Part shown: piece by piece, positions 11,602-59,014 of the stretch
How positions within the stretch are numbered: position 1 is the stretch's first letter
How the letters are laid out: the number at the start of each line of letters is the position of its first letter
NCBI GenBank assembly: GCA_943332615.1
Contig: CALQQB010000006.1
Span: forward strand, 43,348 to 107,347
Direction of reading: 5' to 3'
From: Phenylobacterium deserti
GTDB lineage: Bacteria > Pseudomonadota > Alphaproteobacteria > Caulobacterales > Caulobacteraceae
DNA: 64,000 nt
Translations under genes and position numbers: made by a program
The notes under the pieces: model-generated
Seen by the model: only the letters and a program-made list of their open reading frames with translations
Database searches by the model: none
Told to the model about the DNA's origin: nothing

Positions 11602-11767
11602 GTCATCCCGGTTTTGGCGCAGCCAAAGCCTGCCCTCGCGAAGGCGGGGGACCGGGATCCACGACCTCCGAGTTCATTGTTGAAACGCAAACGGCGCCGC
11701 CCATTCGAGGACGGCGCCGCTTGCATTTGTGGGTCCCGGTCTTCGCCTCTGGCGAAACCGGGATGAC
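11602..11767. repeat. MITE/REP-like intergenic element with 13-bp perfect terminal inverted repeats
   Basis: GTCATCCCGGTTT (11602-11614) versus AAACCGGGATGAC (11755-11767); internal CGGCGCCG palindromes. Confidence 0.75.
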
Positions 11768-44796: not shown

Positions 44797-46602
44797 TCAG
44801 CGGCTAGATTGCAGGGCCTCTCGCCGCTCTTCCAGATGGAGCCATTCTTCCTCCGCGGCGGCGAGCTGGAGGCGGGCGGTTTTCAGAGCGAGGCTGTGGC
44901 TTTCGAAGCCGGCCAGGTCGCGGGCGTAGAGCGCCGGATCGGCCATGGCGGCCTCAATCACAGCGATCTTGCCGGGGAGGTCGTGGACCAGGGTTTCCAG
45001 TTCCGTGAGCCGGCGCTGGTCTTTGAAGGAGAGCTTGGCGGCGACCTTCGGCGCAGCGGCCAGGGAGGCCGGTTTCGAGACGCCGCCCCGGCCGGCCTCG
45101 CGCGCCACGCGGCCGCCGAAGAACCCCGGATTCTGGCTGAGGAAGTCCTGCCAGCCGCCCGGCGTCTCTACCGCGCGGCCGGTCCCGTCCAGCCCGATGG
45201 TGGACGTGGCGAGGCGGTCGATGAAATCGCGGTCGTGGCTGACCAGGATCAAGGTGCCCTCGTAGTCGGCCAGCAGGTCCTCGAGCAGGTCCAGGGTGTC
45301 CATGTCGAGGTCGTTGGTGGGCTCGTCCAGCACCATGACATTGGCCGGCCGCGCCAGGGCCTGGGCCAGCAACAGGCGGTTGCGCTCGCCGCCCGACAGG
45401 CTCTTCACCGGTTGCCGCAACTGCGCCTCGGTGAACAGGAAGTCCTTGGCGTAGGAGATCACATGGCGCGGCTCGCCCCGCACCAGCACCTGGTCGCCGC
45501 CCAGCGGCAGCAGCACCTCGCGCAGCGTCATCTCCGGTTTCAGCGTCGCCCGCGCCTGGTCGATGTAGCTGACTTCCAAATTCGTCCCCAGCTTGACCTC
45601 GCCCGAGTCGGCCGGGATCTCGCCCAGCAGCACCTTTACCAGGGTGGTCTTGCCAGCCCCGTTCGGCCCGACGACCGCGACCCGGTCGCCGCGCAGGATG
45701 CGGGTGGAGAAGGATTTCAGCAGAACCTTGGGTCCGAACGCCTTGGAGATGCCCTTGACCTCGACAACCCGCTTGCCGGAGACGCCGGAGCTGGCGATGC
45801 CCATGTTCAGTTCAGAACGGGAATCCTTCAGTCGGTCCACCTTGTCCTGGCGGAGCGAATCGAGCCGGCGGCGGCGGCCTTCGTTGCGCGCCCGCCGCCC
45901 GGTGACGCCGCGCGCCATCCAGTGCTGCTCGCGCTCGATGTAGCGGTCGAGACGCCTGGCCTCCTCGGCCTCGGCGGAGGTGATTTTGTCCGCCCAGTCG
46001 TCGAAGGCGGCGAAGCCCTTGTCCAGCCGCTTCACCTGCCGGTACTCCAGCCAGAAACAACGGCCTGTCACCCGCTCAAGGAACGCGCGGTCGTGGCTGA
46101 CGATCAGGGCGGCGGACTTGGACCCCGCGAGCTCCGCCTCGAGGGTCTCGATGGCAAGGATGTCCAGGTGGTTGGTCGGCTCGTCCAGCAGGATGATGTC
46201 CGGTTCTTCGGCGAAGGCCCGGGCCAGGGCCGTGCGCCGGATCTCACCGCCCGACAGGCCGGTGGCCGGCTTGGCGGGATCGAGCCCGAAGTCGCTGAGG
46301 GCCGATTCCGCGCGGTACGCCGGCGCGCCGCCGGCGGTGGCGTGATCCAACAGGGTCGCGCCTGTGATCTCCGGCTCCTGCGGCACGAAGGCGACAGTGG
46401 TTCCAGAGGTGATGATCCGCTCGCCACCGTCCGCCGCGATCTGGCCGGCCAGGATGCGCAGCAGGGTCGATTTCCCGGCCCCGTTCCGCCCGACCAGGCA
46501 GGCGCGCACCCGCGCATCGATCGCGAGGTTGACGCCGTCGAACAGCATCAGCGGACCATCCGCGAGGCGGACGTCCTTCAGGGCGAGGATGGGCGCTCTC
46601 AT
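44797..46602 (-). CDS. uup: ABC-F family ATPase, Uup
   Basis: Two ABC domains (GRNGAGKSTLLRIL; GPNGAGKTTLVKVL), coiled C-terminus. Confidence 0.94.
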   Translation of the reverse strand: MRAPILALKDVRLADGPLMLFDGVNLAIDARVRACLVGRNGAGKSTLLRILAGQIAADGGERIITSGTTVAFVPQEPEITGATLLDHATAGGAPAYRAESALSDFGLDPAKPATGLSGGEIRRTALARAFAEEPDIILLDEPTNHLDILAIETLEAELAGSKSAALIVSHDRAFLERVTGRCFWLEYRQVKRLDKGFAAFDDWADKITSAEAEEARRLDRYIEREQHWMARGVTGRRARNEGRRRRLDSLRQDKVDRLKDSRSELNMGIASSGVSGKRVVEVKGISKAFGPKVLLKSFSTRILRGDRVAVVGPNGAGKTTLVKVLLGEIPADSGEVKLGTNLEVSYIDQARATLKPEMTLREVLLPLGGDQVLVRGEPRHVISYAKDFLFTEAQLRQPVKSLSGGERNRLLLAQALARPANVMVLDEPTNDLDMDTLDLLEDLLADYEGTLILVSHDRDFIDRLATSTIGLDGTGRAVETPGGWQDFLSQNPGFFGGRVAREAGRGGVSKPASLAAAPKVAAKLSFKDQRRLTELETLVHDLPGKIAVIEAAMADPALYARDLAGFESHSLALKTARLQLAAAEEEWLHLEERREALQSSR

Positions 46603-46620
46603 GGGGGCGCTCCCATAGCC

Positions 46621-46712
46621 CGGGAAAGTAGGGACACACACCACTTTCTCGTGTCCGAGCGCGGCCCGACGCCGGCGACGCCGAGAAAGTGGTGTGTGTC
46701 CCTACTTTCCCG
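46621..46712. repeat. Perfect 31-bp inverted repeat (REP/MITE-like)
   Basis: CGGGAAAGTAGGGACACACACCACTTTCTCG (46621-46651) and its exact reverse complement (46682-46712), 30-nt spacer. Confidence 0.97.
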
Positions 46713-46725
46713 TACATCCCCGCGC

Positions 46726-47190
46726 ATGGCAGGCGAACCTTTCTGGCGGCGCAAGACCCTAACCCAGATGACCGTGGCGGAGTGGGAGAGCCTGTGCGAC
46801 GGCTGCGGCCTGTGCTGCCTGGTGCGGTTCGAGGACGAGCGGACAGGCGAGGTGTTCCCGACCCGGGTCCACTGCAAGCTGTTCGACGCCGCCGCCTGCA
46901 GCTGCTCGAACTATGCTGAGCGTCATAAGCATGTGCCCGATTGCATCAAGCTGACCCCGCACAACATCGAGGCGCTGGAGTGGATGCCCAAGAGCTGCGC
47001 CTACCGCCGCCTGCACGAGGGCCGCGACCTGGCGGAGTGGCATCCGCTGGTGTCAGGCGACAGCGAGAGCGTGCATCGTGCCGGGGTCTCGGTGCGGGGC
47101 CAGACGGTCAGCGAAGCGGTGCTGGCGGCGCCGGAGGACGCGCTGGAATTCGCCGCGTGGGACCTGATCGAGGAACGCGGGGAGGATTAG
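46726..47190 (+). CDS. YcgN/UPF0260 family cysteine-cluster protein
   Basis: WESLCDGCGLCCLVRFED, HCKLFDAAACSCSNYAERH, CAYRRLHEGRDLAEWHPL. Confidence 0.92.
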   Translation: MAGEPFWRRKTLTQMTVAEWESLCDGCGLCCLVRFEDERTGEVFPTRVHCKLFDAAACSCSNYAERHKHVPDCIKLTPHNIEALEWMPKSCAYRRLHEGRDLAEWHPLVSGDSESVHRAGVSVRGQTVSEAVLAAPEDALEFAAWDLIEERGED

Positions 47191-58864: not shown

Positions 58865-59014
58865 CTTGCCTCCCACGCGTAGCGGGGGAGGGGGACCGCT
58901 CGCCGAAGAGCGAGTGCTCGAGGGGGCGATCGCTTGCGCCGCTCTTGGCCTTCCCCCTTCCACCACCGGCTCTTCGGCCGGCGCTCCCCCTTCCCCGTAA
59001 ACTGGGAAGGCAAG
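58865..59014. repeat. ~150-bp MITE-like palindromic element between RR and HK genes
   Basis: Ends CTTGCCTCCCA.../...TGGGAAGGCAAG; internal GGGGGACCGCTCGCCGAAGAGC versus inverted GGCTCTTCGGCCGGCGCTCCCCC. Confidence 0.65.

Follow-up and report, generated by a model that had tools for sequence, protein, structure and literature searches.

The window, a stretch of 64 kb of DNA that was analysed as a whole, contains a palindrome of 92 bases (46621-46712) between two divergent genes. To its left lies a uup-like ABC-F ATPase gene (44797-46602, minus strand, ATG at 46602), and to its right a YcgN-like CxxCxxCC gene (PF03692; 46726-47190, plus strand, ATG at 46726). The left arm, CGGGAAAGTAGGGACACACACCACTTTCTCG (46621-46651, plus strand), is separated by a G+C-rich spacer of 30 nt (46652-46681) from the right arm (46682-46712, minus strand), which is its exact reverse complement. 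This confirmed exactly, at 31/31 bases, the perfect 31-bp inverted repeat with a 30-nt spacer that the preliminary description had placed between uup and a YcgN-family gene. Among the 47 inverted repeats detected in the window, it was the only one of such length with 100% complementarity. When up to 3 mismatches were allowed, a 25-mer core of the arm matched the window at the two arms only, and no match arose in 100 shuffles; the exactness of the repeat exceeds chance by far. At 11602-11767 of the window, just beyond the 3' end of an ORF, there is a 27-nt inverted repeat (GTCATCCCGGTTTTGGCGCAGCCAAAG / CTTCGCCTCTGGCGAAACCGGGATGAC, 78% complementary), which looks like another repeat family, and a 44-nt inverted repeat with a 27-nt spacer (80% complementary) was present at 58883-58997.

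Folded as single-stranded DNA, the 92-mer reached -45.5 kcal/mol (z = -12.0). The arms also formed hairpins when they were folded alone, the left one at -5.6 kcal/mol (z = -4.0), with a CGGGAAAGT / ACTTTCTCG stem and the core in the loop, and the right one at -3.6 kcal/mol (z = -3.0). As the whole 92-mer and each of its arms form hairpins, the element is a nested palindrome. The conserved core, GGGACACACACC, occupies positions 46631-46642 (plus strand) in the left arm and 46691-46702 (minus strand) in the right arm, and agrees with the motif GGGGWSAS (PMC3733652) at 7 of 8 positions (AGGGACAC). An Rfam search of the window gave no matches, and a literature search with the arm sequence returned unrelated human, animal and cell-biology papers only. 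A hairpin of such stability would suit a rho-independent bidirectional terminator, but the element lies upstream of both divergent genes and not at a 3' end, and it has no T-tract, so that this function is extremely improbable.

The uup start at 46602 is conserved, and MRAPILALKDVRLADGP is largely common to the relatives. A CATAG box adjoining the left arm (46611-46620, minus strand) is kept in relatives and by its position would be the -10 region of uup. The TANA box GTACATCC, which abuts the right arm (46712-46719, plus strand), is also conserved and would by position be the -10 region of the CxxCxxCC gene. The element begins directly after the ATAG box of uup and stops at the TANA box. A scan of the site with the -35/-10 consensus of Caulobacter RpoD (PMC8144410) gave scores not above those of shuffled sequence, with no significant match at either box, and the promoter reading is therefore one of positional conservation only.

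In the relatives G013, G067, G072, G073, G002 and G099 the divergent genes are separated by ~80 nt with a strongly conserved 18-nt motif, GCAAGTTCGCGCTTCTGT. This motif was almost invariant in the uup-CxxCxxCC interval of many Phenylobacterium (L022, L023, L024, L025, L029, L035) while its surroundings were variable, and it is likely a shared regulatory or promoter motif; hypothetically, it would hold the -35 regions of both genes. In the window, ~50 bp of host sequence including this motif have been replaced by the element, which may possibly affect both promoters and their transcription. The nearest sampled relative in a tree of uup and the CxxCxxCC gene was G013 (support 0.99), which keeps the uninserted state with the motif; the window palindrome was absent from the interval of this sister species and of most relatives. 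Because ~50 bp of host sequence are missing, the insertion was not clean, and deletion or conversion is required. An origin of the spacer as retained host DNA was not supported by comparison with the intergenic regions of relatives (best p ~0.01-0.02 among 16 tests).

Two other species, G009 (L021) and G032 (L027), carry other imperfect palindromes in the same interval. With their ends lying beyond the start-proximal box of either gene, they make the two divergent promoter regions mirror each other. Without mismatch, GAAAGCGAGNGCGCGCACCAC was found solely at this site, in G009 and G032, and only one arm of the G032 palindrome aligned significantly to the window arm. A single ancestral insertion as the origin of both palindromes was rejected, since they lie on separate branches of the uup-CxxCxxCC tree and their neighbours lack it; some branches of this tree have modest support, which bears on the number of independent insertion events. 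G084 (L026) has an insertion of a different repeat (GTCATGGCCGGGC...GCCCGGCCATGAC) in this interval, adjoining the retained motif. With G084, G032 and G009 on separate branches and each carrying some other repeat or imperfect palindrome here, the interval may be an insertion hotspot.

In the host genome (G000, a Phenylobacterium of the Caulobacteraceae; 4.67 Mb, 99.99% complete), no copy of the arm was found outside this element. The multiple genomic copies for which the preliminary description had suggested a check were thus not found, and the single copy gives no direct sign of activity there. Of 101 Phenylobacterium species, 2 had exact dimers built on the same 12-nt core, and window-type 19-mers (up to 1 mismatch) occurred patchily, in 11 of 390 Caulobacteraceae genomes. 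When 84,980 species genomes were scanned, exact same-core dimers were recovered from 28 DNA stretches, mostly of Caulobacter, Phenylobacterium and Brevundimonas. Rare carriers were Rhodospirillaceae, Devosia, a Bradyrhizobiaceae MAG, Bipolaricaulota, Omnitrophota, Clostridiaceae and a deltaproteobacterium. Dispersed copies of the dimer were present in G032 and in Caulobacter RYN_462, and dimers of the same family occupy unrelated sites, with flanks that differ from copy to copy. This patchy spread points to a mobile repeat and not to a conserved regulatory site. The matches in plasmid and phage collections were all short and weak (26-38 bp, mostly to the spacer), and no vehicle was found in them.

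The sequence GG[GT]GACA is conserved in the dimer family, while the bases preceding GGGACA vary (GTGG, TTGG, ATCG and others); many relatives read GGGGACAC where the window arms read AGGGACAC. Outside the core, the arms agree far better within one dimer than between dimers. In 35 unique dimers, the outer 8 nt matched between own arms at 6.03 of 8 positions, compared to a permuted mean of 3.84 (maximum 4.63, 2000 permutations), and the inner 8 nt at 7.26 of 8, compared to 3.80 (maximum 4.74, 2000 permutations). The nested stem was somewhat longer in real arms than in permuted ones (4.11 vs 3.42, maximum 3.91). The spacer varies freely in sequence between copies at about constant length; in seven copies from one Caulobacter genome the spacers were near random, and their length was mostly 33-34 nt beyond the 19-nt arms.

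These features bear on whether the element is a REP doublet (REPIN/BIME) of the classical GTAG-tagged type, belonging to a RAYT of group 2 or 3. Like REPINs and BIMEs (PMC3116915, Bertels and Rainey 2011; TnpA-REP, PMC8266576), it has two hairpin units in inverted orientation around a spacer and is presumed to move in trans through a Y1 enzyme that acts on single strands. GTAG precedes GGACAC in each arm, and the host genome has a RAYT. However, the 5' tag, although present in the arm, is unconserved in relatives; the family has neither a conserved GTAG nor a conserved GGAG and shares instead the core GG[GT]GACA, which is close to the reported TIR motif (see below). In addition, REPINs are abundant, whereas the copy number of the window family is low and the element itself is a single copy. 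It differs from classical REPs and REPINs in both tag and copy number, and we consider this reading very unlikely.

Near-identical arms were found beside a gene for a Y1 transposase in G299, a genome of another Caulobacteraceae genus, probably of the Brevundimonas group judging by the sequence identity of a sister record. The product of this PF01797 gene (MPRQARVVIPGLPHHVTQRG...) has HLH and YVGLNP motifs, and the gene is flanked on both sides by GGAAAGTAGGGACACGCACCACTTTCC, which differs from the window arm by one mismatch over the common stretch GAAAGTAGGGACAC(A/G)CACCACTTTC. Upstream there is one single arm; downstream there are a dimer and another single arm. A Y1 gene flanked by the same arms, which the preliminary description had proposed to look for, therefore exists in G299 (with 1 mismatch) but not in the window's own genome, and the link to RAYT-type transposases that it had suggested held, although not in the form of a canonical REP. 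In G299 (L111, 735-1508 and 1474-1500), a single arm makes up the last codons of a lipB-like ORF (C-terminus ...FGESRDTHHFPGK), so that a repeat arm can be read into the end of a protein.

Similar arrangements were seen at other transposase loci. In Phenylobacterium G009, the gene of a transposase with 74% identity to the G299 enzyme lies between full dimers, GGGGACACGTACGACTTTCCCG, and GGGGACACACACC arms adjoin RAYT genes in a Rhodospirillaceae MAG and a Bipolaricaulota MAG. Dimers headed by GG[GT]GACA were located at a distance of up to 450 bp at 24 of 40 distinct transposase loci, and on both sides at 14, in a locus set that was not random since many genomes had been picked for carrying the core or a homologue. 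As a control, 30 other 3-kb loci contained one such dimer, which was the window element itself. Transposase identity and arm identity were correlated (Mantel r = 0.41, p = 0.0002, n = 24), a value that does not separate co-evolution from shared descent. A pair of G032 dimers 774 bp apart was considered as an arm-flanked RAYT and was rejected, as it encloses a duplicated gene that does not encode a transposase. In L016 of G032 (1501-2347), a tandemly duplicated gene has one of its copies enclosed by two dimers whose spacers are related, and these dimers were apparently duplicated together with the gene.

The associated transposases have the PF01797 domain with HuH and mostly YxxxNP motifs and are mostly ~200-240 aa long. 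They matched the general RAYT model NF047646 below its curated cut-off, and a Pfam HTH search with six of them gave no matches at E values up to 10. Assignment to RAYT group 1 (TnpA-Y1 subclass 2.1) is likely but unproven, as Pfam did not reveal the C-terminal HTH of this subclass.

The distribution of the arms also weighs on the alternative that the element is a regulatory hairpin or operator kept by selection between the divergent genes, for example as a cruciform, a site for a dimeric regulator or a shared promoter element. Its position exactly between two conserved -10-like boxes, which provides both genes with the same 31-nt upstream sequence, the perfect arms and the imperfect palindromes at the same site in two other species would all fit such a function. 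However, sister species and most relatives lack the element and many of them have the 18-nt motif instead, the same arms occur at unrelated loci, near-identical arms adjoin a transposase gene, and the RpoD scores at the site were not raised. The preliminary description had regarded a single copy conserved at the same site as favouring a regulatory hairpin; the element is indeed single-copy, but the site is empty of it in the sister species. A regulatory hairpin or operator kept by selection is therefore unlikely.

The only Y1 gene of the host genome (L003, contig C2) encodes a protein with 48-49% identity to the G299 enzyme and adjoins a different repeat family, CGGTGACAGTGCATTAA (CGGTGACAGTGCA). 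Its dimers (GTTACGGTGACAGTGCATTAAACT, spacer 43 nt) lie at 212-302 and around 1357-1420 of L003. The 13-mer head of this repeat had 20 matches with at most 1 mismatch in the host genome, and several of these were paired as dimers. Since the repeats beside the one Y1 transposase of the host are different, the window element is most likely an orphan and probably immobile in this genome now. Absence of any RAYT, which the preliminary description had counted against a mobile origin, did not apply, as one is present; its flanking repeats are, however, of another family. The suggestion of a non-autonomous copy fits these data, with near-identical arms beside a Y1 gene elsewhere and the cognate missing from the host genome. 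The several dimers of G032, a genome without a PF01797 match, are most likely orphans as well.

Tyrosine transposases flanked by inverted repeats (TIRs) have been described as TIRYTs, and the units that they form as TIRtrons (PMC3733652, De Nocera 2013). The motif GGGGWSAS is common to a subset of TIRs, which form dimers or clusters in some genomes, are also dispersed as single arms and dimers, and are in some cases partly or wholly self-complementary; published TIRtrons can be without a repeat family (PMC3733652). The window element shares with TIR dimers the inverted arms with a GGGGWSAS-like head (7/8) and the near-identical arms that flank a Y1 gene in G299. It differs in that its arm, AGGGACAC, is one position off the motif and in that it is a single copy without a cognate gene. 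The main text of PMC3733652 names neither Caulobacter nor Phenylobacterium. In a later classification, 20 of 26 TIRYTs fell into TnpA-Y1 subclass 2.1, which corresponds to RAYT group 1; REP-like sequences were not found beside subclass 2.1 genes, and further analysis was called for (PMC6006769, Quentin et al. 2018). The transposases examined here resemble this subclass in their HuH and mostly YxxxNP motifs and their length, whereas structured dimers were present at 24 of the 40 loci.

Taken together, the 92-bp palindrome is very probably a TIR dimer of the kind that RAYT/TIRYT Y1 (HUH) transposases, probably of RAYT group 1, recognise in TIRtrons; it would be an orphan and non-autonomous copy, placed in trans. 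It consists of two inverted 31-nt arms, each a hairpin headed by AGGGACACACACC. TnpA-REP enzymes bind one strand of hairpins and cut adjacent to them (PMC8266576). By analogy, a Y1 transposase would process the TIR dimer in single-stranded form, and the dimer would be copied to, or joined at, another place in trans. We infer that such a transposase moved the window element, most likely via a single-stranded hairpin intermediate during replication. Insertion would postdate the divergence from the nearest sampled relative, with loss of the ~50 bp between the divergent genes, and the cognate transposase would have been lost from this lineage or never have resided in it. The single copy, the mismatched resident transposase and the unclean insertion weigh against the orphan dimer, as do the palindromes at the same site in the non-sister species G009 and G032, since simple random insertion leaves these unexplained.

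More tentatively, and with some doubt, group 1 RAYTs (TIRYTs) might use a nested-hairpin dimer as a recognition code, with a near-universal GG[GT]GACA head and a variable tail that co-evolves with the transposase. The arms alone, and not the spacer, would then be mobile or converted, and could take over divergent promoters at recurrent sites. In the literature compared, the repeats of TIRYTs had one earlier description (PMC3733652). The paired set of arms and transposases, which includes several loci with dimers on both sides as well as orphans, makes the choice of hairpin by Y1 enzymes directly testable, and it bears on the movement of repeats in trans and on the rewiring of neighbouring promoters.
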